Shown: one piece after another, positions 1 to 21,010 of the stretch
How positions within the stretch are numbered: the first letter of the stretch is position 1
Layout of the letters: the number at the start of each line of letters is the position of its first letter
Assembly (NCBI RefSeq): GCF_014636865.1
Contig: NZ_BMER01000001.1
Coordinates: 2,530,718 to 2,594,717 of the forward strand
Direction of reading: 5' to 3'
Origin: Parapedobacter pyrenivorans
Lineage (GTDB): Bacteria; Bacteroidota; Bacteroidia; Sphingobacteriales; Sphingobacteriaceae
DNA: 64,000 nt
Notes under the pieces: generated by a model
What the model was told of the DNA's origin: nothing
Seen by the model: only the letters and a program-made list of their open reading frames with translations
The model's database searches: none
Position numbers and translations under genes: made by a program

Positions 1-1
1 G

Positions 2-808
2 GTAAATGGAGATGTACTAACTGGTGACTGGAAGTGGAACGTGGCTGCCATGCTGGCGTCCAATAAAAATGAAGTCGTGAAAATTGCGGGCGGAAGTGAT
101 ATTTACAGTGCTGGCCAAGCTGCAGTATGGTCCAGCACGAACATTGCCCGTGAAGGTGAGCCGCTGGGCGCTCTCTTCGGCTACCGGGAAGACGGGCTTA
201 CCGAAAATGGACTGATCAAATATAAAGACACCAATGGCGACGGGACGGTCAATGCTCAAGACCGGGTGATTCTCGGGAATCCTACGCCCGACTGGATATA
301 CAGCTTGAATTCGACACTCTCCTACAAAGGAGTCAACCTGAATATTTTCTTGGAAGGTGTGCAGGGCAATGAGATTTTCAATGCGACCAATGGTACGCAC
401 CTGAATTCTTTTCAGCGCGGCAGTAATCAGTTCCGAGACATCATCGGAAATTATTGGACGATTGAAAATCCGGATCCGAATGCCAAATACCCCAAGATCA
501 GTGCCGCTAGTGGTGTGGATATCTCTGATCGGTTTATTGAAAGCGGCAGCTACCTGCGCGTGAAAAATATCAGCTTGGGTTATGATTTGCCTATGGCAAA
601 ATGGGGCGCTACATGGTGCAACGCCATTCAGATCTACGTATCGGGAACTAACCTGTTTACCTTTACGGACTACACTGGCCTGGATCCGGAAATCAATACG
701 CGGGGCGATGATTCACAGGAGGTCGGCAATCGTCTCCGGATGGGACACGATCAAAGTGGCTACCCCAATGCCAAAGTTTATGCAATTGGTTTACGATTAA
801 CTCTTTAA
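2..808 (+). CDS. SusC/RagA-family TonB-linked outer-membrane receptor, C-terminal part (5' end outside window)
   Basis: This is the last ~268 residues of a SusC-type receptor; the reading frame is open from base 2, so the start, signal peptide, carboxypeptidase-like domain, plug and most of the barrel lie to the left of the window. Visible features are aromatic-alternating beta strands (for example YSLNSTLSYKGVNLNIFLEG), the typical late-barrel phrase SYLRVKNISLGYDLP, the LFTFTDYTGLDPE stretch, and a terminal strand ending in a hydrophobic residue (LRLTL), as expected of an outer-membrane barrel. SusC proteins import oligosaccharides across the outer membrane with energy from TonB. The SusD partner starts 12 bases downstream, which supports the assignment. 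The substrate cannot be read from this fragment, but downstream genes point to a sugar or glycoside whose products are oxidised. Confidence 0.93.
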   Translation, partial: VNGDVLTGDWKWNVAAMLASNKNEVVKIAGGSDIYSAGQAAVWSSTNIAREGEPLGALFGYREDGLTENGLIKYKDTNGDGTVNAQDRVILGNPTPDWIYSLNSTLSYKGVNLNIFLEGVQGNEIFNATNGTHLNSFQRGSNQFRDIIGNYWTIENPDPNAKYPKISAASGVDISDRFIESGSYLRVKNISLGYDLPMAKWGATWCNAIQIYVSGTNLFTFTDYTGLDPEINTRGDDSQEVGNRLRMGHDQSGYPNAKVYAIGLRLTL

Positions 809-820
809 AGCAAAGCAACA

Positions 821-2275
821 ATGAAAAGAATAGGAATATCCATACTCGTTATTACGACACTTTTGACGTCTTGCCAAGACATGCTAGACGAGATTCCGAA
901 GGACTTTGTAGCAAGAAACAATTATTATACAAATGAGGCCGACGCACAGGGCGCGCTGAACGGTGCCTACAATACGCTGGGTCCTGAATTTTTTAACATA
1001 GAGAACTATATATTGAGTGAGCTCCATGGGGACTACCTGAATGGAAGAGGATCGCAAGCATCTATTTCGCTTATGGACCAGCTGCTGGATCAGCAGAACA
1101 TCGGTCGGACGGCCAGTTTATGGTCACGGTTATACCTGGCCGTAAACCGCGCAAACGCAGTATTAAACAACGTACCCGGGATAGCGGACATCAGCGAAAC
1201 GGCGCGCAGCCGCATCGTTGGTGAGGCGCATTTTATCCGTGCATTGGCCTACTTCGAGCTGGTGCGGGGATTTGGACCCGTTCCGATCAAGACCAAGGAA
1301 AGTACCGACCTCTCCGAGTTGGAATCGCCCCGACGGCCTGAAAATGAGGTGTATGAACTCATCATTGCCGATGCATTGGCTGCGGAACAAGGATTGCTCG
1401 AAGCGGTTAGCGGCACAGGTCAGGCATCGAAATCAGCAGCGAAAATGCTCCTTGCTCATGTATACTTAACGATTGGTGATTGGGCGACGGCGGCGGCCAA
1501 AGCGGATGAAGTGATTTCCAGTGGCAAATATCAACTCGTGAGCGTGCAGCAACCTGATGATTTTTATCAAATTTTCGCGGCCAATACCAGTTCAGAGGAT
1601 ATTATGTCGGTTCACCACTCCGAAACTCGGCAGTCTGAGATTACGAACTACCTGCATATGGGTAATAACATTCCATTTAATTACGCGAGTTCAGGCTATT
1701 TTGCATGGGTGCCGAACATGAATTCATTTATTGGTGAAGATTGGGACGAAAACGATTTGCGCAAACCGTTCAATCTTTATACACACACTCAGAATGCTGC
1801 TGGCGAATGGGTACCGTTGCCTTCTACGACTCCCGTTCTTTTCAAGAAATTTATTACGGATAACACCGGATTGCGAACGTACAGCGCGCCGATATACCGC
1901 TATGCAGAGGCGCTGCTATTTTATGCTGAAGCTGCCTGCCGCGCGGAAGGGGCGCCATCGGCTTTGGCGTTGGAGCGGCTGAACATGATCCGACGCAGGG
2001 CATACGGCTACGATCCCGACGTGCCGTCGCCGGCCGACTACAGCGCGGGGATGAGTGAAGAGCAGTTCATAGATACAGTATTGCAGGAACGCGCTTATGA
2101 ATTTCTAATCGAACGGCGGCGGTGGTGGGATCTAAAACGTACAGGGAGAGCAAAAGAAGCTTTTGCCGCGGTGGGTAAAACGCTGATCGACGAACGTCTG
2201 CTTTGGCCAATACCAGAGAACGAAATTAACAACAACCCTGCAATCGGCCAGGAAGATCAAAATCCGGGATATTAG
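821..2275 (+). CDS. SusD/RagB-family surface glycan-binding lipoprotein
   Basis: A 484-residue SusD-like protein, a surface lipoprotein that caps the SusC channel and binds glycan. It starts with a lipoprotein signal (MKRIGISILVITTLLTSC, lipobox LTSC with Cys18), followed by the typical early helix DEIPKDFV and the NNYYTNEADAQGALNGAYN segment of the N-terminal SusD-like domain (about residues 20-220). The C-terminal RagB/SusD domain (about 270-484) shows the conserved YRYAEALLFYAEA helix and the terminal phrase LLWPIPENEINNNPAIGQ. Length is normal for the family. It follows the SusC gene by 12 bases and is followed by a 197-base gap before the first FAD oxidoreductase, so it is either the end of a transcription unit or followed by a leader. 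The ligand is unknown. Confidence 0.95.
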   Translation: MKRIGISILVITTLLTSCQDMLDEIPKDFVARNNYYTNEADAQGALNGAYNTLGPEFFNIENYILSELHGDYLNGRGSQASISLMDQLLDQQNIGRTASLWSRLYLAVNRANAVLNNVPGIADISETARSRIVGEAHFIRALAYFELVRGFGPVPIKTKESTDLSELESPRRPENEVYELIIADALAAEQGLLEAVSGTGQASKSAAKMLLAHVYLTIGDWATAAAKADEVISSGKYQLVSVQQPDDFYQIFAANTSSEDIMSVHHSETRQSEITNYLHMGNNIPFNYASSGYFAWVPNMNSFIGEDWDENDLRKPFNLYTHTQNAAGEWVPLPSTTPVLFKKFITDNTGLRTYSAPIYRYAEALLFYAEAACRAEGAPSALALERLNMIRRRAYGYDPDVPSPADYSAGMSEEQFIDTVLQERAYEFLIERRRWWDLKRTGRAKEAFAAVGKTLIDERLLWPIPENEINNNPAIGQEDQNPGY

Positions 2276-2472: not shown

Positions 2473-4491
2473 ATGAACATGAGCATCATAAAAAAAATAT
2501 GTGTGCAAACGGTGCTATCCGTTTTCGTAACCTTGTCTTGTATTGCCCAGATCAGAGAGGCCAGTTACGACCTCTGCATCTACGGTGGAACTTCTGCCGG
2601 AGTTATTGCCGCCTATACAGCAGCTAAGGCAGGAAAATCCGTTATACTTATCGAACCCGGCCAACGGCTTGGAGGCTTGAGCTCGGGTGGGCTTGGCCAA
2701 ACCGATATTGGCAACAAATATGTAGTCAGCGGCCTAGCGCTAGATTTTTATCGGAAAATCGGAAAACACTACAATGCGTTTGAACAATGGATTTTTGAAC
2801 CTAAAGTAGCGGAAGCGATTTTTAATCAATATATGGAGGATTGCGATGCCGAGGTCGAATTCGGGCAATTGCTGCTGGATGTAGAGAAGACAGGAACGAA
2901 AATAACCCAAGCTCGTTTTCAGTCGACCGAAAACCTGGGCAGGCCTACACTGACGGTAAAGGCAAACGTGTATATGGATTGCACCTATGAGGGCGACCTG
3001 TTTGCCGCAGCGGGTGTATCCTATCACGTTGGCCGAGAGGCCAACACCGTATATGGCGAGACCATCAACGGGGTGCAATTAATGAACGGACACCAGTTTC
3101 CCGATGGCATAGACCCATATATGAAGCGTGGCGACCCGAGCAGCGGATTATTGTGGGGGATACGTGACGGTGAATTATTGCCAGATGGTACAGGGGATGA
3201 GAAGGTGCAGGCCTATAACTACCGTATTACGCTCACCAATGTGCCCGAAAACCGTATTCCGATCGTCAAACCGGAAAATTACGATCCTAAGCGCTATGAA
3301 TTGTTGAGGCGGCAGAAGGAAATCCAACCCTGGAAAGGATTGAATGATGTTTTCATTTGGAGCCTGATGCCGAATGGCAAGACGGATATCAATAACCGCA
3401 ATGGGTTTTCCACGGATATGATTGGTATGAACTGGGATTATCCGGAGGCTGGTTACCAGCGTCGGCAGGAAATCATCAAAGCCCATGAAGACTACACGAA
3501 AGGGTTGCTGTATTTCGTGGGCAACGACCCATCCGTGCCGGAGTTTATCCGCAAGGAGATGCAACAATGGGGGTATCCCAAAGATGAATATGTAAATGAT
3601 GGTCACTGGAGCCCACAGCTCTATATCCGTGAAGCCCGTCGGATGGTTGGTGAACTGGTGATGACTCAACAACATTGCCAGGGCAACAAAGTGGTAAACG
3701 ATGAGGTGGGCTACGCCGCCTACACGATGGATTCACACAACTGCGATCGATTGGTGGTCAATGGTATGGTAAAGAACGAAGGTAACGTGGAAATTGGTGG
3801 TTTCCCGCCATTCCCGATTTCCTACCGTGCGATCGTGCCCAAGCGCAATGAGGTTACGAATCTATTAGTCCCCGTGTGCTTGTCGGCCAGCCACATCGCT
3901 TTTGGTTCCATCCGAATGGAACCGGTATTTATGGTATTGGGGCAGTCTGCGGCGGTGGCAGCGTGCCATGCAATAGATGGGGATATCGATGTACAGGCAG
4001 TAGATGTGAACGACATCAAATCAACTTTGGCAGCCAACCCGAAAGCCGATGGTAGGCAACCCGATGTGCTGGTCAGTAGCACTGATTCGGGTGCGGTGCA
4101 ATTCGTTGGGACCTGGAAGGAAGGCCACAGTAAGGGGTATGGCCGCACATATGTCGAAGCGGACAGCAAAGACGGCTTAAGCACCGCCACGTTTGCGGCA
4201 CAAAACCTGAAGGCAGGCAGTTATCAAGTCTATACTTATTTTCCTAAAGCGCCAAAAAGCGCGTTGCAGTTTAATTTTAAAATTTCTGATGGTAAGCAGG
4301 TTTCCGAAAAAATCTTAGATTTGTCAAAGATAGAAATCAAGGGCCAAACCTCGAGTACGTGGGTCTCCATTGGCGGGTTGACAGTGGGGGAAGGAGCCGA
4401 CGAGGTATTTGTCGAGCTCAGCACCGATGGGGCCGAAGGGGTCGTCGCTGCCAATGCCGTGCTGTTTGTGCCTGCAGACGATCAATTGTAA
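2473..4491 (+). CDS. Exported FAD-dependent oxidoreductase with C-terminal golvesin/Xly-type domain
   Basis: A 672-residue secreted flavoprotein of the FAD_oxidored (PF12831-like) group. A signal peptide covers about residues 1-25 (ending near SCIAQ). The dinucleotide-binding motif is YGGTSAG (37-43), with an acidic residue at 61 (IEPG) and GGLSSGG (67-73). The C-terminal half of the flavoprotein part has the conserved block SHIAFGSIRMEPVFMVLGQSA that recurs in the paralogue at 6850-8496. Residues about 545-668 form an extra beta domain resembling the golvesin / xanthan-lyase carbohydrate-binding-like fold (GTWKEGHSKGYGRTY, YQVYTYFP, AANAVLFVP). Because of that domain such proteins are often labelled 'xanthan lyase'; nothing here looks like a lyase. 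The substrate is unknown; the sugar locus suggests an alcohol or keto-sugar. The start could also be Met3 (2479). Confidence 0.85.
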   Translation: MNMSIIKKICVQTVLSVFVTLSCIAQIREASYDLCIYGGTSAGVIAAYTAAKAGKSVILIEPGQRLGGLSSGGLGQTDIGNKYVVSGLALDFYRKIGKHYNAFEQWIFEPKVAEAIFNQYMEDCDAEVEFGQLLLDVEKTGTKITQARFQSTENLGRPTLTVKANVYMDCTYEGDLFAAAGVSYHVGREANTVYGETINGVQLMNGHQFPDGIDPYMKRGDPSSGLLWGIRDGELLPDGTGDEKVQAYNYRITLTNVPENRIPIVKPENYDPKRYELLRRQKEIQPWKGLNDVFIWSLMPNGKTDINNRNGFSTDMIGMNWDYPEAGYQRRQEIIKAHEDYTKGLLYFVGNDPSVPEFIRKEMQQWGYPKDEYVNDGHWSPQLYIREARRMVGELVMTQQHCQGNKVVNDEVGYAAYTMDSHNCDRLVVNGMVKNEGNVEIGGFPPFPISYRAIVPKRNEVTNLLVPVCLSASHIAFGSIRMEPVFMVLGQSAAVAACHAIDGDIDVQAVDVNDIKSTLAANPKADGRQPDVLVSSTDSGAVQFVGTWKEGHSKGYGRTYVEADSKDGLSTATFAAQNLKAGSYQVYTYFPKAPKSALQFNFKISDGKQVSEKILDLSKIEIKGQTSSTWVSIGGLTVGEGADEVFVELSTDGAEGVVAANAVLFVPADDQL

Positions 4492-4503
4492 ACTGCAAAA
4501 CCA

Positions 4504-5808
4504 ATGATGAATAACGAAAAAAGCGGAGGTTATTCCCGTCGAAACTTTTTGAAGGCAAGCGCGGTAGCTACCGCAGGCTTTATGATCGTGCCACGCCAAG
4601 TCCTGGGCGGAACAGGGTTCATCGCGCCGAGCGACCGCATTAACCTGGGTTATATCGGCACGGGTAAACAAGTGTATACGCTATTGCGCAACATCGGGAA
4701 AGTGCAGGAAACCATGGTGGTTGCTGCGTGTGATGTAGACCGCAAGAAACTGGCAAAGTTTGTTGGAGAAGCGACACAGCTCAACGCAACTAAATCCGGC
4801 CATCCGGTCCCTGCTTTCGGTGACTACCGCGAACTGCTAGCACGGCCTGATGTGGATGCCGTAGTGGTAGCAACACCCGATCATTGGCATGCGATGAACG
4901 TGATCGACGCCGCAAAAAGTGGAAAAGACATTTATTGCGAAAAGCCACTGGCATTGACCATTGATGAAGGCAGGGCCATGGTGGAAGCGGTAAAAAAATA
5001 TAAGCGGGTACTACAGACCGGCAGCATGCAGCGCTCGCAGTACAATTTCAGGCAGGCGGCTGATTTAGTGAAAAATGGCTACATCGGCGAGATCAAAGAA
5101 ATCAATGTCGCGGTAGGTGAGCCCGTAAAGCAATGCGACTTGCCGTCCATGCCAATACCCGACTACCTCGACTGGGACCGCTGGATCGGACCGTCGCTTT
5201 ATCGCGGGTACCACCCAACCCTTTCTCCGCCTATCGAAGACGATAAATGGGCGTGGTGGCGGGGATACCGCGGCTTTGGTGGCGGATACATTACCGACTG
5301 GGGGGCTCATATGTTTGACATCGTGCAGTGGGCACTGGACATGGATGCTTCTGGTCCAGTCTCGTTTGTGCCCCCAGAGCAGCCAGGTTCAGTAGAGGGG
5401 CTGTATTTTACGTACGCAAACGGCGTACGGGTCAACCATAAAGCATGGGGACAGCACAACGCCATTCAGTTTGTCGGCACGGAGGGCAAAATCGAAGTTT
5501 CAAGAGGAGCGTTGAACACCGAGCCAGTAGGGTTGGCTAAGCAATCCCCGAAAGCTTCGGATAAACTGGTATACCATTCAGACAATCATTATCAAGATTG
5601 GATAGACGCGATTAAAAAGCGTAGCAAGCCCATTGCTGACGTGGAAGTAGGACATCGTACCGCTTCTGTTTGTAATGCCATCAATATTGCATACGAATTG
5701 CAGCAACCGCTTGGATGGAACCCCAAAAAGGAGTTGTTTGACAACGCTTATGCGAATATGCTGAAAGGCAGACCTTACCGTAAAGGATGGGACTACCAGG
5801 ATTTTTAA
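4504..5808 (+). CDS. Tat-exported Gfo/Idh/MocA-family sugar oxidoreductase
   Basis: A 434-residue NAD(P)-dependent oxidoreductase of the Gfo/Idh/MocA family. The N-terminus carries a twin-arginine signal (SRRNFLKASAVATAGF, R12-R13), so it is probably folded with cofactor in the cytoplasm and exported. The Rossmann fold begins at INLGYIGTGKQ (about 47-56). The family signature EKP is at 146-148, with Lys147 the expected catalytic lysine. The second domain shows the GYITDWGAHMFDIVQWAL segment that often supplies the active-site histidine. It starts 12 bases after the flavoprotein gene and is followed 45 bases later by an isomerase-fold gene, a pairing repeated at 22313-24645. Exported members in Bacteroidota include enzymes that oxidise glycosides at C3; that role is an inference here. 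Confidence 0.9.
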   Translation: MMNNEKSGGYSRRNFLKASAVATAGFMIVPRQVLGGTGFIAPSDRINLGYIGTGKQVYTLLRNIGKVQETMVVAACDVDRKKLAKFVGEATQLNATKSGHPVPAFGDYRELLARPDVDAVVVATPDHWHAMNVIDAAKSGKDIYCEKPLALTIDEGRAMVEAVKKYKRVLQTGSMQRSQYNFRQAADLVKNGYIGEIKEINVAVGEPVKQCDLPSMPIPDYLDWDRWIGPSLYRGYHPTLSPPIEDDKWAWWRGYRGFGGGYITDWGAHMFDIVQWALDMDASGPVSFVPPEQPGSVEGLYFTYANGVRVNHKAWGQHNAIQFVGTEGKIEVSRGALNTEPVGLAKQSPKASDKLVYHSDNHYQDWIDAIKKRSKPIADVEVGHRTASVCNAINIAYELQQPLGWNPKKELFDNAYANMLKGRPYRKGWDYQDF

Positions 5809-5853
5809 AATGGATTCCGGAAACTGACATATCAATGATCAAACGATTATAAG

Positions 5854-6825
5854 ATGAGCGAAAGAAAACTCTCCCGTCGTCGATTTTTAGCTTCGGCCTC
5901 CGTTGCGGCCGTCGGCATCGGCGTTGCCTCGCGTGCATTTGGCGTGCCCGCCTATATCCGCAATCTGGGAAAACCAAACTCCTTATTCAAAGGGGTACAG
6001 GTAGGTGTAATCACCTATTCATTCCGGACCATGCCCAGTAGTGCCGAGGAACTACTCAGCTACTGCTTGGAAGCCAACGTCAGCGCTGTGGAACTGATGG
6101 GACCTGCTGCCGAGGCGTTTGCCGGGGCACCCCAGCCACCCGCAAAATCAGGCGATGGTGAAGAAGAGAACGGAGAAAGGAAGGCATACCTCAGTACGTT
6201 AGCCGATTGGCGCGCGCAGGTTCCCATGACTAAGTTTGAGCAGCTCAGGAAAATCTATAATGATGCAGGCGTCTCCATATATGGTTATAAACCCAGTGCA
6301 TTAGGTACGAATAATACCGATGCGGAAATCGACTATGCATTCCGTGCAGCAAAAGCCCTTGGTGCCAATCAAGCCAATGTGGAGTTTCCGAAAGATCCGG
6401 CGCACACCAAGCGCTTGGGAGCGATTGCGGCCCGAAACAAAGTCTACGTGGGCTACCACGGACATTTGCAACAGACATTCGATATGTGGGATGCCGCCAT
6501 TGAGCAGTCTGCATACAATGCCGCCAATTTCGATATGGGCCATTACGTGGCCGCTGGCTATGACCCGATTGCCTTTATCGAGGCGAAGCACCGCCACATC
6601 GTGAGCATGCACGTTAAGGATCGCAAATCCAAGGCTAATGGTGGTGCCAACCTACCATGGGGGGAAGGGGATACGCCGATTACGGAAGCGTTGCAGCTGA
6701 TGGCCATGCGTAATTATAAATTTCCGGCTACCGTCGAACTGGAATACCCCATCCCAGAGGGTTCAGACGCGGTAAAAGAGGTGGCCAGATGCGTAGCGTA
6801 TGCCCGAGAAGCGCTGAAGGCCTAA
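5854..6825 (+). CDS. Tat-exported sugar phosphate isomerase/epimerase-fold protein (AP-endonuclease-2 TIM barrel)
   Basis: A 323-residue protein with a twin-arginine signal (LSRRRFLASASVAAVGIG) and a xylose-isomerase-like TIM barrel (AP_endonuc_2). Metal-binding-type residues appear in the expected order: the SAVELMGP strand, KVYVGYHGHLQ, NFDMGHYVAAG, HIVSMHVKDR and the late glutamate in ATVELEYP. These are the Glu/His/Asp ligands used for a divalent metal in this fold. It sits between an exported Gfo/Idh/MocA enzyme and an exported flavoprotein. In related loci such proteins act on 3-keto-sugars or keto-glycosides, for example as hydrolases or lyases rather than phosphate isomerases; this is inferred from context. 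The gene ends directly before the next (TAA immediately followed by an ATG). Confidence 0.87.
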   Translation: MSERKLSRRRFLASASVAAVGIGVASRAFGVPAYIRNLGKPNSLFKGVQVGVITYSFRTMPSSAEELLSYCLEANVSAVELMGPAAEAFAGAPQPPAKSGDGEEENGERKAYLSTLADWRAQVPMTKFEQLRKIYNDAGVSIYGYKPSALGTNNTDAEIDYAFRAAKALGANQANVEFPKDPAHTKRLGAIAARNKVYVGYHGHLQQTFDMWDAAIEQSAYNAANFDMGHYVAAGYDPIAFIEAKHRHIVSMHVKDRKSKANGGANLPWGEGDTPITEALQLMAMRNYKFPATVELEYPIPEGSDAVKEVARCVAYAREALKA

Positions 6826-6849
6826 ATGATCCAGATAACCAAATTAACC

Positions 6850-10908: not shown

Positions 10909-11532
10909 ATGTCTACCTTATCGCGCATTACCGAAGAAAAAATCGTAGCAATTATCAGGGGCCTGAACCCCAGCTATGGGGTTGCGGTTGCTGAAGCGTT
11001 ATATGCCGGTGGTATCCGGATATTGGAAATTACGATGAATTCCGACGAACCGCTATCGGTTATACGTCAGATCACTGATCGGTTTGGTGACCGAATGGTG
11101 GTCGGTGCAGGAACCGTGCTCGATGCCGATATGGCGGAAGTGGCGGTGGCGGCCGGCGCGCGGTTTGTGCTTTCACCCATCGTAGCCGTGGAGGTCATCA
11201 GGAAGGCAAAGGACTTGGGCGTAGTCAGTATACCGGGAGCTTATACCGCTACCGAGATTTATACGGCATATAAAAATGGTGCAGACATTGTGAAGGTCTT
11301 TCCCGCTACATCACCGGCATATATTCGGGATATTGCAGGGCCGTTACCGCAAATACCCTTGTTGCCAACGGGTGGTATTACGCCACAAAATATCAAGGAC
11401 TTTAAACATGCTGGGGCTGTGGGCTTTGGTATAGGTAGCGCATTGGTGGATACCAAGCAGCCCATGACTTCCCGATATTTTGAGCAAATTACCGAGCGCG
11501 CACGGCAATTCGTTGACGCCATAACCGAATGA
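10909..11532 (+). CDS. eda: KDPG / 2-dehydro-3-deoxy-6-phosphogalactonate aldolase family (class I)
   Basis: A 207-residue aldolase of the Eda/DgoA family that cleaves 2-keto-3-deoxy-6-phospho-sugar acids to pyruvate and glyceraldehyde 3-phosphate. The Schiff-base lysine is Lys129 in IVKVFPA, the general acid/base glutamate is Glu40 (RILEITMNS), and GAGTV (67-71) and LLPTGGITP form the phosphate-binding end of the barrel. Length and start are typical. It is 14 bases after the dehydrogenase gene and 37 bases before dgoD, so the likely substrate is KDPGal rather than KDPG. There is no signal peptide, so it is cytoplasmic, unlike most of its operon neighbours. No KDG/KDGal kinase is present in the window. 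Confidence 0.93.
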   Translation: MSTLSRITEEKIVAIIRGLNPSYGVAVAEALYAGGIRILEITMNSDEPLSVIRQITDRFGDRMVVGAGTVLDADMAEVAVAAGARFVLSPIVAVEVIRKAKDLGVVSIPGAYTATEIYTAYKNGADIVKVFPATSPAYIRDIAGPLPQIPLLPTGGITPQNIKDFKHAGAVGFGIGSALVDTKQPMTSRYFEQITERARQFVDAITE

Positions 11533-12749: not shown

Positions 12750-14876
12750 ATGAAAAGAATCGTTCATCGTTGGAAAGCGACCTGGTTCTTGGGATGCGTG
12801 ACATCCTTGGTTTTTCTTTCTACTTGCATTTCAGATCACGCACACCATCGGGAATGGCGGGAATATCTAGGGGGATCCGATCGGAACCACTATGCTGCGC
12901 TCTCACAAATCAATACCACTAATGTGAGTTCCTTGCAAAAAGCATGGGAATACCATTCACTCGATTCAGGAGAAGTGCAATGCAACCCCTTGATGATCGA
13001 TGGAAAATTATATGGTGTAACAGCTTCCAATCGCCTTTTTGCGTTGAATGCAGCAACGGGTAAAGAATTGTGGCGTTTTGAGGCCGATACAGCGGGACCA
13101 TCGCATGTAAATCGTGGCATAGCGTATTGGGAGCATGATACGGATCGACGCCTGCTTTTTGCTTCCAAATCCTGGCTGTATGCTATTGATGCCGAAACGG
13201 GAACACCGATAATGAGCTTTGGCGATGGGGGCAGGGTAGGGTTAAAGACCGGTTTGGGCGACGCTGCGGCGGATAAATATGTGGTTTCCACGACTCCTGG
13301 AGCAATCTACAAGGATATCATCATTATGCCTATACGCGTGGGGGAGGGCATTTCCGCTGCTCCCGGATACATCCAGGCATTCAACGTTATCACAGGCAAC
13401 CTGGAATGGGTATTCCGTACAATTCCACATCCTGGCGAGATGGGGCATGATACGTGGCCGGAGCAAGCGTATAAAGATCCTTCGATAGGTGGCGCAAATA
13501 GCTGGGCAGGGATGGCCGTAGATCACAAGCGGGGAATCGTATTCGTGCCCACTGGATCGGCGGCATTTGATTTCTATGGTGGCAACCGGAAAGGCAAAAA
13601 TCTGTTTGCCAATTCGCTGCTCGCGTTGGATGCACAGACTGGTGATTATATCTGGCATTACCAGGCTGTACATCACGATACCTGGGATCGCGATTTTCCG
13701 GCCCCGCCCAACTTATTAACCATCCATAAAGAAGGGAAGTCCATTGATGTCGTAGCGCAAGTCACGAAGTCGGGCTACATTTTTGTATTCAACCGGGAGA
13801 CGGGTGAACCCATTTTCCCGATTGATGAAGTAGTGGTACCATCGTCCCGATTGCCGGGTGAGGAACTATGGCCCACCCAACCCGTTCCCCGCCTACCCCA
13901 GCCCTTCGCGAGGCAAGTGTTGACCGAGGCGGATATCACCTGGTTTTCTGATAGGCGTGATTCGCTTCTCACTGTTTTTCAACAGGCCAATAAAGGCTTG
14001 TTCCACCCCTTGGGATTCGAGGAAACGATTGTCTTCCCAGGTGCTGATGGCGGTGCCGAGTGGGGCGGGGCTGCGGTCGATGAAAGCGGCGTACTCTATG
14101 TAAATGCGAACGAGATGGCCTGGCTGTTCAGTCTCAGCCCGACAGATGGAATGAATGGAGGTGCCAGCCCATCATCCGGAAAGCAGTTGTATAACACGTA
14201 CTGCCGTACTTGCCATAAACCCGATCTATCCGGTAGTCCGGGAAGTGGCTATCCAAGCCTAATCGATGTGAAAACACGGCTGTCGCGGGAGCAGATGGCA
14301 AATATGATTACTGCTGGGAAAGGGATGATGCCGGGATTTACAACAATCAAAGAACAGGAAAAGCAATCACTCATTAACTACATTTTCGGGGAGGAAAAAG
14401 AAGAAGTGTTTGAAAAGGTGTCTACTGCCGTAGTAGATGACGTCTCCGAGGTACCCTACGTATTCAATGGCTATAATAAATTTTTGGACGAACGCGGGTA
14501 CCCTGCTATTACCCCGCCTTGGGGTACGCTTACGGCAATAGACCTCAATACGGGTCGGCATGTCTGGCAGATCCCATTGGGCGAGATAAGTGCCCTTCGA
14601 GAACGAGGTATCCCCATCACCGGAACGGAAAACTATGGCGGTCCGATAGTGACGGCAGGCGGTTTGTTGTTCATTGCTGCAACGAAGGACAACCGTTTCC
14701 GGGCGTTTGACAAACGCACAGGGAAATTATTATGGGAATATGAGTTGCCGACTTCAGGTTTTGCCACTCCCGCTACCTACGAGTTGAATGGAAAGCAATA
14801 TGTCGTGATAGCCTGTGGAGGAGGTAAGCTTGGTACGAATAAAGGCGATAGTTATGTGGCATTTGCATTGCCATAG
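12750..14876 (+). CDS. PQQ-dependent quinoprotein dehydrogenase with inserted haem c domain (lipoprotein)
   Basis: A 708-residue quinoprotein of the PQQ glucose/alcohol dehydrogenase propeller class. The N-terminus has a lipoprotein-like signal (lipobox FLSTC). Propeller W-motifs are clear: LFALNAATGKELW, SLLALDAQTGDYIWHYQ and RAFDKRTGKLLWEYE. A c-type cytochrome segment is inserted near residue 485 (CRTCH), before the last blades, as in the soluble/periplasmic 'quinoprotein glucose dehydrogenase' group. The role is oxidation of an aldose to a lactone in the periplasm, with electrons going through haem c to the respiratory chain. Next to dgoD, oxidation of galactose (or a galactoside) to galactono-lactone is a natural guess, but substrate choice is not readable. 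No PQQ biosynthesis genes lie in the window. Confidence 0.88.
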   Translation: MKRIVHRWKATWFLGCVTSLVFLSTCISDHAHHREWREYLGGSDRNHYAALSQINTTNVSSLQKAWEYHSLDSGEVQCNPLMIDGKLYGVTASNRLFALNAATGKELWRFEADTAGPSHVNRGIAYWEHDTDRRLLFASKSWLYAIDAETGTPIMSFGDGGRVGLKTGLGDAAADKYVVSTTPGAIYKDIIIMPIRVGEGISAAPGYIQAFNVITGNLEWVFRTIPHPGEMGHDTWPEQAYKDPSIGGANSWAGMAVDHKRGIVFVPTGSAAFDFYGGNRKGKNLFANSLLALDAQTGDYIWHYQAVHHDTWDRDFPAPPNLLTIHKEGKSIDVVAQVTKSGYIFVFNRETGEPIFPIDEVVVPSSRLPGEELWPTQPVPRLPQPFARQVLTEADITWFSDRRDSLLTVFQQANKGLFHPLGFEETIVFPGADGGAEWGGAAVDESGVLYVNANEMAWLFSLSPTDGMNGGASPSSGKQLYNTYCRTCHKPDLSGSPGSGYPSLIDVKTRLSREQMANMITAGKGMMPGFTTIKEQEKQSLINYIFGEEKEEVFEKVSTAVVDDVSEVPYVFNGYNKFLDERGYPAITPPWGTLTAIDLNTGRHVWQIPLGEISALRERGIPITGTENYGGPIVTAGGLLFIAATKDNRFRAFDKRTGKLLWEYELPTSGFATPATYELNGKQYVVIACGGGKLGTNKGDSYVAFALP

Positions 14877-14980: not shown

Positions 14981-17329
14981 ATGAGGCGCTTTCTTTCGCC
15001 GAAATGGCTAATTGGCATATTGATTCTGTTGTTTGTGGTGTTGCTTTCCGCTTATTTTTTCTCCGGAAGCCAAACAAGCAGCATGGGCGGTTCTATGCCG
15101 TTGCCGGCGGTAGTCGACTACAATTTTCACGTCCGACCGATCCTATCAGACAAATGCTTTGCTTGCCATGGGCCGGATAAGAATGCGCGCGAAGCGGATC
15201 TACGGCTGGATACGGAGGAGGGTGCCTACAAGGCACTGGTGGAGACTGCCGGTATGCACGCGATTGTGCCGGGCCATCCAGACCAAAGCGAGGCCTATCT
15301 GCGGATGACCAGTGATGACGAGTCCGTGCGGATGCCCCCCGTATCGGCCAACCTAGCGCTAAACGACTATGAGATCAAACTCATTGAACGGTGGATTAAG
15401 CAGGGAGCGGAATACAAGCCCCATTGGGCATTTACCCCGCCTGAAAAGACAGAAGTTCCGGAGGTGGATGATGCGGATTGGCCAATCAACGAGTTGGATC
15501 GCTTTGTGCTGGCACGGATGGAAGTGAAGGGGTTTGAACCTAACCCCGTGGCAGAAAAACATCATTTGCTACGACGCGTTAGCCTCGATCTTACCGGACT
15601 GCCGCCCACTGATGAGCAGCTCGAACGTTTTCTGGCAGATAACTCCGAAAAGGCGTATGAAACCGCAGTAGACGAACTCATTGCTTCGCTAGCCTATGGC
15701 GAGCGCATGGCTATGCATTGGCTGGATGTGGCACGTTATGCGGATTCTTATGGGTACCAGGATGACGATATCCGTACGCAGTGGCCATGGCGCGATTGGG
15801 TAATCCATGCTTTCAATGAGAATATGCCCTATGACCGATTTGTAACGTGGCAAGTGGCGGGCGATTTGTTACCCAATGCGACGAAGGAGCAATTGCTGGC
15901 TTCTGCTTTTAGCAGGAACCATAAGATTACCGAAGAAGGCGGAGTGATCGAAGAGGAATACCGGGTGGCCTATGCGATTGATAAGACCAACACCTTCAGC
16001 AAAGGGATTTTGGGTATTACCATGGAATGTGCACAGTGCCACGATCATAAGTACGACCCGTTCTCGCAGAAGAATTATTTTGAACTATACGCCTTTTTCA
16101 ATAATTCGATGGAGAAGGGGCTCGAAGGACTAGTTAATTCCGGACCGTCGAAAACACCTCGCCTTACGATTACCCAACAGGATGTGGAGAGCATTCTGCA
16201 ATTTATCAATAAAGGCGAAGATACGTCGGCCGTATCGGTATCCGTGATGGGCGAACGTGACGAGGTTAGGCCAACGTACGTGCTGGATAGAGGGGTGTAT
16301 GATGCACCTGCGGAACGTGTTTACCCGGGAACGCCGGAATCTGTGCTGGAATTTGACAGCACTCAATATGCGTCCAATCGGTTGGGACTTACGGAATGGG
16401 CTTTCAACAAGGATAACCCACTTACTGCCCGTGTATTTGTAAACCAATTGTGGGCCATGGTTTTTGGACGTGGGCTGGTCGCTACGGTGGCAGACTTCGG
16501 TAATCAGGGCGAACTCCCAAGTCATCCGGAACTATTGGATTGGCTGGCTGCCGACTTCCGCGACAACGGGTGGGATGTGAAGCGGTTGATGAAACAGTTT
16601 GTGATGAGTGCCACCTATCGTCAGTCGTCGCAGGTTACAAAAAAACACCTTCAAGAAGACCCAGACAATGTTTACCTGGCACGGGCCAAGCGGGTGCGGT
16701 TGCCGGCAGAATCCATCCGCGACCTGGTGCTGGCCAGTAGTGGATTGCTGAATCCGGAAATCGGTGGCGCTAGTGTGAAACCCTACCAGCCCGACGGTAT
16801 ATGGGAAGTAACCAGTTCCGGACGGGGCGCGCTGACCAATTATGTGCAGGATCACGGCGGTGCGCTGTACCGCAGGGGGATGTATGTGTTCATCAAGCTG
16901 ACGGTTCCGCCGCCGAACATGCTGATATTTGACGCCAGTAACCGAGACATGTGTGAAGTAACCCGCCAACGTACGAATACTCCGCTTCAGGCCTTGGTCA
17001 TGCTGAACGATCCGGTAATCCTTGAAGCGTCGCGGGTACTTTCCGGGAAGCTGCTAGCTGCCTCACCGGAAGCACCAACGCGTAACTATATTGAGCGCGC
17101 ATTCCTCCGAATCTTGAGTAGGGAGCCGAGTACGCAGGAAATGGACCTGTTGGAAGATTACTATCAGAGCGAATTGAAACGCTACCGGGGATCGCCGTCG
17201 GAGGCCGAGGCTTTCTTGGATGTGGGGGAGGCCCCGCAGGAAAAAAGTGTTCCGGTTGCGGCGCAGGCGGCGTTAATGGCGGTGGTTCATACCTTGTATA
17301 ACCTGGAGGAAACCATTACGCGGACATGA
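14981..17329 (+). CDS. DUF1549/DUF1553 protein with Planctomycete-type cytochrome c domain (PSCyt1-PSCyt2-PSD1)
   Basis: A 782-residue protein with an N-terminal membrane anchor (WLIGILILLFVVLLSAYFF). The PSCyt1 haem domain follows (about 48-115; CFACHGPD, Cys59), then PSCyt2/DUF1549 (about 165-370, with a second haem-like CAQCHDHKYDP near residue 350), then PSD1/DUF1553 (about 480-740, with the hallmark RQRTNTPLQALVMLNDP). The biochemical role of this family is not established; it nearly always sits beside a DUF1501 gene, as here, in oxidative glycan loci of Planctomycetes and Verrucomicrobia. The 104-base gap upstream holds a possible -7 box (14947-14954), so it may have its own promoter. 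At 782 residues it is shorter than many family members, mainly between the DUF1549 and DUF1553 parts. Confidence 0.9.
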   Translation: MRRFLSPKWLIGILILLFVVLLSAYFFSGSQTSSMGGSMPLPAVVDYNFHVRPILSDKCFACHGPDKNAREADLRLDTEEGAYKALVETAGMHAIVPGHPDQSEAYLRMTSDDESVRMPPVSANLALNDYEIKLIERWIKQGAEYKPHWAFTPPEKTEVPEVDDADWPINELDRFVLARMEVKGFEPNPVAEKHHLLRRVSLDLTGLPPTDEQLERFLADNSEKAYETAVDELIASLAYGERMAMHWLDVARYADSYGYQDDDIRTQWPWRDWVIHAFNENMPYDRFVTWQVAGDLLPNATKEQLLASAFSRNHKITEEGGVIEEEYRVAYAIDKTNTFSKGILGITMECAQCHDHKYDPFSQKNYFELYAFFNNSMEKGLEGLVNSGPSKTPRLTITQQDVESILQFINKGEDTSAVSVSVMGERDEVRPTYVLDRGVYDAPAERVYPGTPESVLEFDSTQYASNRLGLTEWAFNKDNPLTARVFVNQLWAMVFGRGLVATVADFGNQGELPSHPELLDWLAADFRDNGWDVKRLMKQFVMSATYRQSSQVTKKHLQEDPDNVYLARAKRVRLPAESIRDLVLASSGLLNPEIGGASVKPYQPDGIWEVTSSGRGALTNYVQDHGGALYRRGMYVFIKLTVPPPNMLIFDASNRDMCEVTRQRTNTPLQALVMLNDPVILEASRVLSGKLLAASPEAPTRNYIERAFLRILSREPSTQEMDLLEDYYQSELKRYRGSPSEAEAFLDVGEAPQEKSVPVAAQAALMAVVHTLYNLEETITRT

Positions 17330-17372
17330 TGAACGGCTAATCGCCGATAGCTGAAAAAGATGAACGTATAGC

Positions 17373-18845
17373 ATGAAGAAAGACGAAATGATTGCGAAAG
17401 AGGTAGCGAACGCCCGTCTATTCCAAAACAGGCGGCAGTTTCTCTCACGGCTGAGCATCGGTATTGGAAGTGCGGCGTTGGGCTCATTGCTGATACCGGA
17501 CTTGTTTTCTGGCGGTGGTGTGGATGAAGAAGGGCTGATGGCGAGGCTTCCGGAATTTGCCCCGAAGGCAAAGCGGGTGATTTACCTGTTTCAGAGTGGA
17601 GGGGTGTCCCAACTGGAGTCGTTCGATCCGAAACCCAAGCTACGGGAAATGATGGGACAGGACCTGCCGGAATCGATACGTGGAGGACAACGGCTCACGG
17701 GCATGACGGCCGGCCAGGCAACTTTTCCCCTGGTGGGTTCATACTATGATTTTGCGCAATATGGCAAGAGTGGGGCATGGGTAAGCTCGGTATTTCCTCA
17801 TATGGCCAACGTGGTAGACGATCTGTGCATTATTCGTTCGCTTCATACCGATGCAATCAACCACGATCCAGCCATCACGTTTTTCCAAACGGGTGCGCAG
17901 CAGGGTAATCGCCCCAGTATGGGCGCGTGGCTAAGCTACGGGCTGGGCAGCGACAATCAAAACCTGCCGGCATTCTGCGTACTCGTGTCTAAAGGAAAGG
18001 GCAATGGGCAGGGGGTTTACTCCAAACTATGGACCAACGGCTTTCTGGATTCGGTGCATCAGGGGGTGCAGTTCATGGGCGGACCAGACCCGGTACTGTA
18101 TCTCAGTGATCCTCCGGGCACGGACCGCATGAGCCGGCGGGCCATGTTTGATAAACTGGCGGAGCTGAACAGCCTGCAGTTTGAAGCGTTTGGCGACCCC
18201 GAAATCACGGCAAAAGTGCAGCAGTACGAAATGGCCTACCGCATGCAAACGTCCGTGCCGGAAGTGACCGACCTCTCAAAGGAGCCGGACCACATCGTTA
18301 AACTATACGGGCCCGACTGCCTTGTGCCGGGTACCTATGCGGCCAATTGCCTGTTGGCACGTAAGTTATCTGAAAATGGTGTGCGCTTTGTACAATTATA
18401 CCATCAGGGCTGGGACCAGCACGGCGGCTTGCCATACGAGATGGCCATGCAGGCCAAAGACGTAGACCAAGCGTCGGCCGCGTTGATTACGGATCTGAAG
18501 CAACGGGGGCTGCTGGATGAAACACTCGTGATCTGGGGGGGGGAATTCGGGCGGACAAACTATTGCCAGGGTAATCTGGAATACAACAACTATGGCCGGG
18601 ATCACCACCCACGCTGTTTTAGTGTGTGGATGGCCGGAGGCGGTGTGAAACCGGGAATGGTATATGGTGAAACGGACGAATTTGGCTATAACATTGTAAA
18701 GGATCCCGTGCACGTACATGATTTCCATGCCACCATCTTACACCAATTGGGGCTCAATCATGAGAAATTGACGTATCGGCACTTGGGCAGGCGCTATCGC
18801 CTCACCGATGTTGCCGGTACTGTGGTGAACGATATTCTGGTGTAA
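17373..18845 (+). CDS. DUF1501 protein (Tat-exported, alkaline phosphatase/sulfatase-like fold)
   Basis: A 490-residue DUF1501 protein, the usual partner of DUF1549/DUF1553 proteins. A twin-arginine signal is at about 20-45 (NRRQFLSRLSIGIGSAALGS). Characteristic stretches are KRVIYLFQSGGVSQLESFDPKP, the LHTDAINHDPAITFFQTG histidine/asparagine motif, HQGWDQHGGL, WGGEFGRTNYCQG and GRDHHPRCFSVWMAGGG. These resemble the metal-binding pattern of the alkaline phosphatase/sulfatase superfamily, but no enzymatic activity has been firmly assigned. It starts 43 bases after the DUF1553 gene and ends 8 bases before the next gene, indicating co-transcription. Confidence 0.92.
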   Translation: MKKDEMIAKEVANARLFQNRRQFLSRLSIGIGSAALGSLLIPDLFSGGGVDEEGLMARLPEFAPKAKRVIYLFQSGGVSQLESFDPKPKLREMMGQDLPESIRGGQRLTGMTAGQATFPLVGSYYDFAQYGKSGAWVSSVFPHMANVVDDLCIIRSLHTDAINHDPAITFFQTGAQQGNRPSMGAWLSYGLGSDNQNLPAFCVLVSKGKGNGQGVYSKLWTNGFLDSVHQGVQFMGGPDPVLYLSDPPGTDRMSRRAMFDKLAELNSLQFEAFGDPEITAKVQQYEMAYRMQTSVPEVTDLSKEPDHIVKLYGPDCLVPGTYAANCLLARKLSENGVRFVQLYHQGWDQHGGLPYEMAMQAKDVDQASAALITDLKQRGLLDETLVIWGGEFGRTNYCQGNLEYNNYGRDHHPRCFSVWMAGGGVKPGMVYGETDEFGYNIVKDPVHVHDFHATILHQLGLNHEKLTYRHLGRRYRLTDVAGTVVNDILV

Positions 18846-18853
18846 GGGAAACG

Positions 18854-21010
18854 ATGAGAACCATCCATGCGCTGCTGCTGAACCTGCTGATCGGACTTAA
18901 TGTATTTATCCTTTTTTTCCTGCTGTTCGAAAGTAGGATTGTTGTGTCTCCCGCGTTGCAGGTGTTAGGGCGGGGGCATCCATTGTTTCTGCATTTTCCG
19001 ATTGTGTTACTGGTGCTGGCATGGGGGTTGTCCTGGTTTGGCGACCGGCTGGGGATTCCGCAAAACGCGGCCAAGCGGTTTATATACGTATTGCTGTTTG
19101 CCAGCGCCTGGAGCGCTGCCATCACCGTGGTAGCGGGGCTGCTGCTCGCTAAAGAAGGTGGGTATGAGGGTAGTGGCTTTTTGTGGCATAAATGGATGGG
19201 TGTGGTATTGTGCTTTTTAGCTAACGGCTTGCTGTGGTACTATCGATGGAGTACGGAACGCGCAGGCCGCCATCACCGGTTTTTCCTGGCGGGACTGAGC
19301 CTTTCGCTGGTTGTATTGCTGGTAGCGGGGCATCAGGGTGCCGGGTTGACCCATGGTGATGATTTCCTGTTTGAACCCCTGCGTGACAACAGGCAGAAAA
19401 CGTTGGACATGGCGACAGCGGTAGTGTACCAAGACCTGGTTTACCCCATCTTGAAGGCGAAATGTTTGAGCTGCCACAGCACGAACAAGGCGAAGGGTGA
19501 CCTCGTGCTGGCGGATACGGCTTCTTTGATGAAGGGGGGTGAAAATGGGCCTGTACTGGTAAAGGGCTCGGTAGGAGAAAGCCTGATGATGCAACGACTA
19601 TTGCTGGATCTGGATCATGAACATCGCATGCCGCCGAAGGGTAAACCACAGCTGACATCGGAGGAGTTGGCCCTAATTGATGCCTGGATTGCGTCCGGTG
19701 CTGATTTTAATATCCCACTGGCGGAATTGCCCCCCAACGATACCATCCGCTACCTGGTCGCTACGCTGTATGATGCGGCTGAAGAGACGTTTGATTTTGC
19801 AGCCGCGGATGCCGAAATAATTGAAAAATTGAATAGCCCTTATCGGGTTGTCAAGCCGCTGGCACAGACCTCGCCTGCATTGGCTGTTGGTTATTTTGGA
19901 AAGGCATTTTACAACGACCGGTCATTGCGGGAGCTGGAGCCCATTAACCAGCAGGTGGTTTCGTTAACGCTGAGCGGAATGCCATTGACCGGGGGCGACC
20001 GTGATGTATTGGGTGCTTTTGCTAACCTGCGGGAGCTAATGCTAAACGGTACTCCTGTGGATGATAGCTGGAGCGAGATGCTTTCCCAGCTTTCGAAACT
20101 GCAATCCGTTAGCCTAAGCAGTACAGACATGACCGAAGCTGGCCTGACCAAAGTGCTATCCGCACCGGCGCTACGGACGGTGTACGTGTGGAATACGGGG
20201 ATTGATGCAGCTGCGCTAGAGCGGCTCCAGCAACAATACAAGCACGTACGCATTGAGCGTGGCTACGTAGACGACGGTAGCACGGTACTGCCATTGAATG
20301 ACCCGATTATAACCCCGGTAAGCAAGTTTTTCAATGATAAGATACAGGTAACGTTAGCCCATCCGGTGACTGGCGTTGAACTCCGTTATACCCTTGATGG
20401 CGCTGAGCCCGACAGTGTGCATTCAATGATCTACAAAGCTCCGTTTGATGTCGCCGCGTCTACCGTGGTGCGGGTGAAAGGGTATAAGGCTGGATGGCTT
20501 TCGAGCAGGGAGATAAAACGGGCTTTCCACCGATCCGCCCACAGCCCTGCCAAGGTTGTTCTGTTGAGCCAACCGGATCCGCGATATAAAGGAAGGGGTG
20601 CATACTCGTTGTATGACTTGGAAAGCGGGAGCAACAATCATGCAGACGGAAAATGGCTAGGATCTCATGGTCGGCCGATAATTGCTTCCATGCATTTCGA
20701 TACGGGCATAGGCGTCGATACAATAGGCATCGATATTAAACAGGATTATGGCAGTCATATCTATCCGCCGGAATGGGTAGAAGTATGGGGCGGTGCGGAT
20801 TCGGTGAGTGCGCAATTGCTTTCCCGATTCCGTCCGGAATTGCATAAGCCAGAGCAGGTTTCGCCAACACGTTTGGTAAATGTTCCGGTAGGTGGCAAAA
20901 ATATCCGTTACCTCCGTTTAACGGTAGAGCCCTATATACCCATACCTGCGGGATATCCGGCGAACGGCAACCCCGCCTGGATTTTCGCAGACGAAATCAC
21001 TGTTCGGTAG
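18854..21010 (+). CDS. DUF2231-type membrane protein fused to cytochrome c, LRR-like, hexosaminidase-C-like and discoidin-like domains
   Basis: A 718-residue multidomain membrane protein. Residues about 5-165 hold four or more transmembrane helices resembling DUF2231 (HPLFLHFPIVLLVLAWG). A Planctomycete-type haem domain follows (about 195-290; CLSCH at 204, MPPKGKPQLT). Next is a leucine-rich-repeat-like stretch (about 365-460; LSGMPLTGGDRDVLG, LRELMLNGTPV, LQSVSLSSTDM). Then comes a beta segment like the chitobiase/hexosaminidase C-terminal domain (about 490-550; ELRYTLDGAEPDS). A C-terminal part resembling a discoidin-type carbohydrate-binding fold completes it. It is the last gene of the long plus-strand locus; a hairpin terminator follows. 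Likely role: a membrane cytochrome that joins periplasmic sugar oxidation to the quinone pool or terminal oxidases (inferred). Confidence 0.83.
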   Translation: MRTIHALLLNLLIGLNVFILFFLLFESRIVVSPALQVLGRGHPLFLHFPIVLLVLAWGLSWFGDRLGIPQNAAKRFIYVLLFASAWSAAITVVAGLLLAKEGGYEGSGFLWHKWMGVVLCFLANGLLWYYRWSTERAGRHHRFFLAGLSLSLVVLLVAGHQGAGLTHGDDFLFEPLRDNRQKTLDMATAVVYQDLVYPILKAKCLSCHSTNKAKGDLVLADTASLMKGGENGPVLVKGSVGESLMMQRLLLDLDHEHRMPPKGKPQLTSEELALIDAWIASGADFNIPLAELPPNDTIRYLVATLYDAAEETFDFAAADAEIIEKLNSPYRVVKPLAQTSPALAVGYFGKAFYNDRSLRELEPINQQVVSLTLSGMPLTGGDRDVLGAFANLRELMLNGTPVDDSWSEMLSQLSKLQSVSLSSTDMTEAGLTKVLSAPALRTVYVWNTGIDAAALERLQQQYKHVRIERGYVDDGSTVLPLNDPIITPVSKFFNDKIQVTLAHPVTGVELRYTLDGAEPDSVHSMIYKAPFDVAASTVVRVKGYKAGWLSSREIKRAFHRSAHSPAKVVLLSQPDPRYKGRGAYSLYDLESGSNNHADGKWLGSHGRPIIASMHFDTGIGVDTIGIDIKQDYGSHIYPPEWVEVWGGADSVSAQLLSRFRPELHKPEQVSPTRLVNVPVGGKNIRYLRLTVEPYIPIPAGYPANGNPAWIFADEITVR

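Follow-up and report, generated by a model that had tools for sequence, protein, structure and literature searches.

A row of thirteen genes in the genome of Parapedobacter pyrenivorans probably encodes a respiratory pathway for sugars of the galactose type, and its modules are also found separately. The row opens a 64,000-nucleotide stretch of this 5.9-Mb genome (G000:C1:2530718-2594717, the window; positions given without a prefix are numbered within it) and occupies positions 1-21010, the locus. In the fuller reading, to which we give a probability of roughly 0.42, it may be a polysaccharide utilisation locus (PUL) for a galactose-containing substrate, assembled from known modules and feeding the oxidative De Ley-Doudoroff pathway. 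The argument draws on enzyme families, key residues, export signals, haem motifs and gene order as read from the DNA, and on the partial recurrence of that order in other genomes.

The thirteen genes follow one another on the plus strand, as a first-pass annotation of the sequence had stated, with intergenic gaps of 12, 197, 12, 45, 0, 46, 14, 37, 31, 104, 43 and 8 bases. Gaps of this size (0-197 bases) are compatible with an operon, and they were counted in favour of the galactose reading. The row starts with a susC gene that the window edge truncates to its 3′ end; its reading frame is stop-free across that edge, and the complete gene, which starts at L002:17479 in an extract reaching upstream, encodes 1109 amino acids. 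Pfam and NCBIfam profile models agree with the families named in that annotation, namely a SusC/SusD importer, two flavin adenine dinucleotide (FAD) enzymes, a Gfo/Idh/MocA oxidoreductase, a haem-lipoprotein dehydrogenase, a pyrroloquinoline quinone (PQQ)-type dehydrogenase, DgoD and Eda. To these can be added an AP_endonuc_2 TIM barrel, upstream extracytoplasmic function (ECF) sigma and FecR genes, and the truncation of SusC. The haem motif CxxCH occurs in four proteins of the row, with five motifs in total. At an E threshold of 0.001, the 12 complete proteins of the row yielded no catalytic glycoside hydrolase domain, which upholds what the annotation had said on this point, and no polysaccharide lyase or carbohydrate esterase domain either. 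The row has the SusC/SusD pair of a PUL, but no carbohydrate-cleaving enzyme was recognised in it. The term “non-hydrolytic” applies to this locus only; GH95 and sulfatases are encoded in other loci of the genome.

By sequence, the product of dgoD is a D-galactonate dehydratase. Its alignment with E. coli DgoD is gapless, with 226 of 382 residues identical (59.2%), and all six residues checked (D183, H185, E209, E235, H285 and E310, which we take to be the metal-binding and acid/base positions) are kept. Assignment to another enzyme of the enolase superfamily, such as an anhydrogalactonate cycloisomerase, was rejected on the strength of this identity, no cycloisomerase having been aligned. The adjoining Eda-type aldolase is 36% identical to E. 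coli DgoA and, because only the general eda cut-off was passed, may be specific for either 2-keto-3-deoxy-6-phosphogluconate (KDPG) or its galactonate counterpart (KDPGal). A single match to PF05035 above the Pfam cut-off (G000:C1:1212201) supplies dgoK, 36% identical to the dgoK of P. luteus, so that the De Ley-Doudoroff set of DgoD, DgoK and aldolase is encoded in full, with dgoD and eda in the locus and dgoK at a distance. A dgoK remnant after dgoD was considered and rejected, as the gap there is only 31 bases. At its own site (L147:6745-10173), dgoK is preceded, at a distance of 42 bases, by a DUF1080 (3-keto-disaccharide hydrolase) gene, and a gene for an Ldh_2 dehydrogenase also lies upstream.

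The PQQ-type dehydrogenase (PQQ_DH) is, judged from its family and residues, a Gcd-type quinohaemoprotein. It shares 37% identity with E. coli Gcd and keeps seven of ten checked PQQ-binding and catalytic positions (H262, R266, G317, W404, D466, K493 and N607), while three are changed (D354E, N355G and T424A); the position numbers are those that we take to apply to Gcd. The protein has no N-terminal membrane domain, and instead features a lipoprotein-like N-terminus and a cytochrome c insert before the last part of the propeller. Six relatives of PQQ_DH are found in the genome at 1e-80, on contigs C1 and C3. A second oxidoreductase-rich locus of the same genome (L150/L151) contains GH95, ThuA, a DUF7133 protein with cytochrome c, an enolase-superfamily protein that scores 152 bits to DgoD, two PQQ_DH genes, a major facilitator superfamily (MFS) carrier, AP_endonuc_2, DUF1080 and SusCD. 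This means that a PQQ dehydrogenase stands beside a dehydratase-family gene twice in this organism, and the GH95 gene means that the organism is not strictly non-hydrolytic.

In the proposed route, the ECF sigma factor and FecR, together with SusC and SusD, would sense an oligosaccharide or sugar and import it across the outer membrane, as their families suggest. The exported Gfo/Idh/MocA and AP_endonuc_2 proteins, possibly with the pair of FAD enzymes (FADox_G and FADox2), might then process the substrate in the periplasm, perhaps by a 3-keto-glycoside route instead of hydrolysis. The freed aldose would be oxidised at C1 by the PQQ quinohaemoprotein, by the DUF7133-haem protein (DUF7133cyt) or by both, with electrons passing through the enzymes' own haem c to the respiratory chain. 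D-galactonate would enter the cytoplasm through a putative carrier, where DgoD, the distant DgoK and the Eda-type aldolase would convert it to pyruvate and glyceraldehyde-3-phosphate. The PSCyt/DUF1501/PSCyt1 cassette at the end of the row may serve as a further haem module. The substrate, the C1 oxidation, the electron path, the import of the acid and any roles of the FAD pair, the Gfo/AP pair and the cassette are inferred. The first-pass annotation had read the locus in much the same way, as periplasmic oxidation followed by import and dehydration of the acid. That idea is plausible but only in part supported, by the identity of DgoD and PQQ_DH, the exported or haem-bearing oxidoreductases, the kept gene order and the haem sugar dehydrogenases near dgoD elsewhere; the view of the row as one indivisible system is not supported.

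The same chromosomal site can be compared in other members of the genus. Its flanks are a luciferase-like gene on the left and lacI on the right, and in the locus the order between them is ECF-FecR-SusC-SusD-FADox_G-Gfo-AP-FADox2-DUF7133cyt-eda-dgoD-PQQ_DH-PSCyt-DUF1501-PSCyt1. In P. luteus the site holds FecR-SusC-SusD-FADox_G-FADox2-CstA-DUF7133cyt-eda-dgoD-dgoK-Gfo and three reversed genes, and that genome has no PSCyt/DUF1553 match at 1e-40. A further congener (G132) has only DUF7133cyt-PSCyt-DUF1501-PSCyt1 there, without SusCD, FAD enzymes or dgoD. P. defluvii, which shares the left flank, has FADox2-DUF7133cyt-eda-dgoD-dgoK, then [GDSL+DUF7133+cupredoxin], then PSCyt-DUF1501-PSCyt1, and a P. 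indicus contig cut at both ends reads sulfatase-FADox_G-FADox2-DUF7133cyt-eda-dgoD-dgoK-PSCyt. The order FADox2-DUF7133cyt-eda-dgoD, interrupted by CstA in P. luteus, is thus kept in the locus and in all but one of the other four Parapedobacter genomes, and this supports the galactose reading. In P. luteus, P. indicus and P. defluvii, dgoD is followed by dgoK, and the present locus is the only one seen in which PQQ_DH adjoins dgoD. DUF7133cyt is the only gene present in all five loci; the site is modular, with the remaining modules varying around this gene. The locus is a mosaic, and its site is variable in content while the flanks are fixed within the genus.

Outside the genus, haem sugar dehydrogenases recur near dgoD, in Dyadobacter, one distant family and one relative from the Sphingobacteriaceae. 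Two Dyadobacter genomes (CY343 and CECT 9623, with near-identical loci) have SusC-SusD-FADox_G-FADox2, a cytochrome c plus glucose/sorbosone dehydrogenase (GSDH) protein, and dgoD; the dehydrogenase is related to the soluble PQQ glucose dehydrogenase of Acinetobacter (1c9u). In family f52, a ThuA-GSDH-PKD-cytochrome c protein is encoded near dgoD on the same strand in three of four genomes (L198, L199 and L201), directly beside it in two. Eighty dgoD loci were found by name and sorted by hand into 43 from Bacteroidota (including L083, which is labelled Williamsia but carries SusC), 35 others and 2 from Verrucomicrobiota, which were dropped; flanks of up to 10 kb were inspected, some contigs ending sooner. 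Haem-fused propeller dehydrogenases lie within about 10 kb of dgoD in 8/43 of these Bacteroidota loci, in 3/15 of a phylum sample and in 2/8 of a last set that includes this locus, compared to 0/35 Firmicutes and other loci and 1/40 control windows at hand-picked round-number positions on contigs of dgoD-bearing genomes (p=0.008). The 35 Firmicutes and other loci contain no FAD enzyme and no propeller dehydrogenase. At the genome level, dgoD itself turned up in 9 of the order's 151 genomes (E 1e-100) and in 16 of 395 of the phylum (E 1e-120). PQQ_DH accompanies it in 13 of the 16 dgoD genomes, this one included, compared to 42 of the 379 without dgoD (p=8e-10), a co-occurrence that is uncorrected for kinship and genome size. 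Together with the largely kept residues of DgoD and PQQ_DH and the completable dgo chain, the Dyadobacter and f52 arrangements, the propeller-dehydrogenase enrichment and the frequency of PQQ_DH in dgoD genomes support the proposed route.

A number of results weigh against it. The row contains no dgoK, no MFS carrier and, in a profile scan of its proteins, no lactonase domain; dgoK lies 1.3 Mb away. The query for a carrier was the MFS protein encoded next to dgoD in L102, assumed to be DgoT; no close relative was found in the genome, the best match (30% identical, E 2.9e-52) being encoded elsewhere. No pqqE above the cut-off was found in six of six genomes, in a search limited to this one gene of PQQ synthesis, and the weak sub-cut-off matches in these genomes resemble those in 14 of 14 controls. 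PQQ scavenging by Bacteroidota has been reported (PMC12124388). A galactose-type sugar is only a candidate substrate, and this is one of the weak points of the argument; the SusC and SusD of P. luteus score 494 and 108 bits against those of the locus (self-scores 2513 and 1098), so that the imported substrate may differ between the two species. The annotation had named dgoD neighbourhoods without the oxidoreductases in relatives as grounds for refutation, and outside the genus such neighbourhoods largely prevail. A FAD enzyme occurs in five of the 43 Bacteroidota loci (three of them Parapedobacter) and a close PQQ_DH in none, and the 15 loci of the phylum sample include seven with dgoK and none with a FAD enzyme or PQQ_DH within about 10 kb; the counts from the phylum searches are lower bounds, as these scored just the best candidates per genome (two for PQQ_DH). 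A fixed tie between dgoD and oxidoreductases was rejected on these counts. Without this locus and Parapedobacter, the enrichment of propeller dehydrogenases is marginal (9/61 compared to 1/37, p=0.05, near-duplicates counted), and among those nine the dehydrogenase is on the strand opposite to dgoD in L092 and L108 and is a 40-bit match in L053, while in G136, another of the nine, some 6 kb with three genes on the other strand separate PQQ_DH from dgoD. Finally, the modules occur apart elsewhere.

This last point is the core of the strongest rival, a possible though less probable explanation, in which the row is a mosaic that serves no one function. Carbohydrate modules would gather at the site bounded by the luciferase-like gene and lacI, and SusCD with the FAD pair, eda-dgoD, PQQ_DH and the PSCyt cassette would act on different substrates and share only a regulator or read-through. 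A search with FADox2, which picks up FADox_G-type proteins as well, found relatives of one or the other in 53 of the order's 151 genomes. In six of ten such loci opened (L159-L164, from G064, G148, G063, G016, G122 and G071), ECF sigma, SusC, SusD, FADox_G and FADox2 stand with none of the other locus enzymes recognised, although neighbours without a match to window proteins are mostly unannotated, which leaves room for other enzymes. Of these short loci, that of G071 has no FecR match and that of G148 has an extra CstA carrier; the remaining four of the ten differ in layout.

The cassette behaves similarly. At 1e-40, 40 of the order's 151 genomes have PSCyt/DUF1553 relatives, and of the 28 full-length matches besides the locus's own, 20 were opened (L218-L237). 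In all 20, PSCyt1/2-PSD1 comes first, DUF1501 next and PSCyt1_Fn3 after it, and 17 have neither PQQ_DH nor DUF7133cyt within the 20-kb stretch; the neighbours include PQQ_DH in two loci (G083 and G070) and DUF7133cyt in one (G132). The three genes are a fixed cassette in Sphingobacteriaceae, and the idea that it is specific to this locus was rejected. The locus likewise has DUF1501 following PSCyt2-PSD1, but its copy (14981-21010) lacks an extra gene found in 17 of the 20 cassettes, which encodes 341-371 residues between DUF1501 and PSCyt1_Fn3 in 15 and 341 residues after them in two; all three annotated examples contain NHL repeats. The dgo genes also keep other company, with dgoK near dgoD in 27 of the 43 Bacteroidota loci, a related MFS carrier in 24, either one in 30 and a lactonase-like gene in 11. 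The G132 site without SusCD, FAD enzymes or dgoD, the P. luteus genome without a cassette match, and PQQ_DH standing where relatives have dgoK fit independent modules as well. Against this rival, the surroundings of eda-dgoD keep order and strand in four Parapedobacter loci, the FAD pair is again beside dgoD in Dyadobacter with another haem sugar dehydrogenase between, and one of the four divergent FADox loci (G081) again has FADox2 and PQQ_DH together with a DUF7133-haem protein, all on the same strand, albeit without dgoD. The annotation had called the union of known families unusual, and both sides of this hold: the full set is seen only here, while SusCD with the FAD pair, the dgo genes and the cassette each occur elsewhere without the rest.

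There are two further explanations. In a 3-keto-glycoside locus, which is unlikely, Gfo/Idh/MocA and AP_endonuc_2, and perhaps the FAD pair, would oxidise C3 of a glycosidic sugar, which would then be cleaved by elimination, and the dgo enzymes would clear one of the products. The best NCBIfam model for the Gfo protein of the row is indeed the BT_2158 glycoside 3-dehydrogenase family, but its score of 192.8 bits is far below the cut-off of 750. A second AP_endonuc_2 and Gfo pair lies downstream of lacI (22313-24645), its Gfo (23221-24645) scoring 299.5 bits with the same model, again below the cut-off, and the DUF1080 neighbour of the distant dgoK also speaks for such chemistry. However, no DUF1080 (PF06439) was found in the tested proteins from 1-31002, and thus none in the locus; the domain is present beside dgoK and in L151. 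Still less probable is the uptake of ready-made galactonate or galactonate-ended glycans that DgoD would use directly, with the oxidoreductases serving other sugars. Seven loci (L030, L031, L039, L051, L055, L057 and L083) do have SusC, dgoK, an MFS carrier and a lactonase together with dgoD inside 10 kb and lack the oxidoreductases, but the present locus has neither the lactonase nor the carrier of those loci and has oxidoreductases instead.

A broader and more speculative idea, rather unlikely as it stands, is that Bacteroidota possess “redox PULs”, SusCD loci in which respiratory oxidoreductases (PF12831 FAD pairs, haem-fused sugar dehydrogenases and PSCyt/DUF1501 cassettes) replace glycoside hydrolases. 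Glycans would be oxidised in the periplasm; the cytochrome chain would receive the electrons, and dehydratases in the cytoplasm the aldonic acids. The short ECF-(FecR)-SusCD-FADox_G-FADox2 loci would then be the simple form, and this locus the elaborate form, of one strategy.

FADox2 is 82-83% identical to its counterparts in three Parapedobacter relatives and 68-69% identical to those of two Dyadobacter; the lipobox pattern gives no match in it, and its export was read by eye from the N-terminus (SSC after a hydrophobic stretch). Sequence searches at E 0.01 gave no solved structure related to FADox2 or to the DUF1501 protein. Predicted structures of FADox2 and DUF7133cyt, from alignments of 6 and 3 sequences, reached a mean predicted local distance difference test score of 38.5 and 43.6, values too low to justify a fold search. 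When the DUF7133 profile was compared with GSDH proteins, the probability was 37% over 81 columns; a GSDH match was also seen in one DUF7133 protein. In P. luteus (L013:14986-16440), G132 and G148 (L158, L160), FADox2 is followed by a CstA-type carrier, possibly linked to the product of the FAD enzymes.

Features of the locus and its right flank, in window numbering.
Feature	Position	Strand	Evidence
SusC-type TonB-dependent importer, 3′ end	1..808	+	gene start 2522 bases upstream; Plug, CarbopepD_reg_2 and weak STN in upstream part
SusD lipoprotein	821..2275	+	PF07980 3.4e-25, PF14322 6.6e-23; lipobox LTSC
FADox_G, exported FAD-dependent oxidoreductase with Golvesin C-terminal domain	2473..4491	+	PF12831 5.9e-108, PF25275 1.4e-13; TLSC near N-terminus
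Gfo/Idh/MocA oxidoreductase exported by twin-arginine translocation (Tat), glycoside 3-dehydrogenase-like	4504..5808	+	PF01408/PF19051 and TAT_signal; nearest solved chains 8tdf, 8tdh
AP_endonuc_2, xylose-isomerase-like TIM barrel with Tat-like motif	5854..6825	+	PF01261 2.8e-11; SRRRFL at residue 7
FADox2, second FAD-dependent oxidoreductase	6826..8496	+	PF12831 4.1e-115
DUF7133cyt, DUF7133 and cytochrome c dehydrogenase-like lipoprotein	8543..10894	+	PF23500 1.9e-91, cytochrome c, TIGR02604; CQPCH at 660, FSAC lipobox at 49
Eda/DgoA-type 2-keto-3-deoxy-6-phospho-aldonate aldolase	10909..11532	+	PF01081 3.7e-39; TIGR01182 165 bits, cut-off 156
DgoD, D-galactonate dehydratase by sequence	11570..12718	+	PRK14017 697.4 bits, cut-off 311
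PQQ_DH, Gcd-type quinohaemoprotein dehydrogenase by sequence, with cytochrome c insert	12750..14876	+	PF01011 2.2e-185; CRTCH at 485
PSCyt1-PSCyt2-PSD1 (DUF1549/DUF1553) cytochrome protein	14981..17329	+	two CxxCH
DUF1501 protein with twin-arginine motif	17373..18845	+	PF07394 7.2e-154; RRQFL at 20
DUF2231 membrane, PSCyt1 haem and Fn3-type protein, end of cassette	18854..21010	+	domain matches; non-catalytic CHB_HEX_C_1/Fn3 stretch
LacI-type regulator, right flank	21140..22294	-	PF00356; same flank in P. luteus and G132

Upstream of SusC are the FecR and ECF sigma genes and then, on the opposite strand, the luciferase-like gene. Further upstream, outside the window, lies a second ECF/FecR/SusCD PUL with two adjacent sulfatases (L002:10387-14146), which may point to a sulfated glycan. 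A promoter motif, whose consensus we take to be TTTG-TAnnTTTG, ends 23 bases before the ECF sigma gene (L002:15313-15343). It is a lead only, as the two matches in L002 were equalled by 18 of 200 shuffles; no match lies within 1-21010. On the right, the opposite-strand lacI separates the row from the second AP_endonuc_2 and Gfo pair.

If the proposed route is correct, the locus provides sequence candidates for the conversion of galactose to galactonate, a step of the De Ley-Doudoroff pathway that has been described as less well characterised (PMC6927180). A precedent for such a route is the report that, with dgoKAD alone, P. putida grows slowly on galactose through native enzymes (PMC6927180). 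The route would also tie scavenged PQQ to a specific catabolic pathway in Bacteroidota, and would offer a simple test bed for PF12831 FAD pairs and PSCyt/DUF1501 cassettes acting on sugars. If it is wrong, the modules still occur apart and are shuffled at one chromosomal site. Among the open-licence papers listed, judged by title or the start of the abstract, no description of this union of genes was found.

Compared to known systems, the locus resembles a SusCD PUL at its head, where ECF sigma, FecR, SusC and SusD are found, and differs in that no hydrolase, lyase or esterase domain was found in the row, its enzymes being oxidoreductases and dgo enzymes. PQQ_DH is like E. coli Gcd in sequence and in most of the checked positions, but differs in its missing membrane domain, inserted cytochrome c and lipoprotein-like N-terminus. 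The cassette has the same PSCyt/PSD domains as the planctomycete-specific cytochrome (PSCyt/PSD1) genes, while here it is found in Bacteroidota, in fixed combination with a DUF1501 and a PSCyt1 gene and once beside dgoD. The 3-keto-glycoside pathway of Bacteroides BT2156-BT2160 is said to have been described by Nasseri in Nature in 2024, and reportedly proceeds by C3 oxidation and then elimination. With this pathway, and with LacABC plus DUF1080 in Caulobacter and Pedobacter, the locus shares the exported Gfo/Idh/MocA, AP_endonuc_2 and a PUL-like setting, and differs in the missing DUF1080 and in scores below the family cut-offs. Price et al. (2022) report that Caulobacter oxidises glycosides in the periplasm and that Pedobacter depends on a putative periplasmic lactose dehydrogenase to use lactose (PMC9007349). 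With the De Ley-Doudoroff pathway (DgoD, DgoK and DgoA), the locus shares a DgoD 59% identical to that of E. coli, an adjoining Eda/DgoA-type aldolase and a dgoK elsewhere in the genome. It differs in that dgoK and a carrier are absent from the row, and in that the proposed oxidation of galactose would be periplasmic, quinone- and haem-linked, and encoded in the same row.

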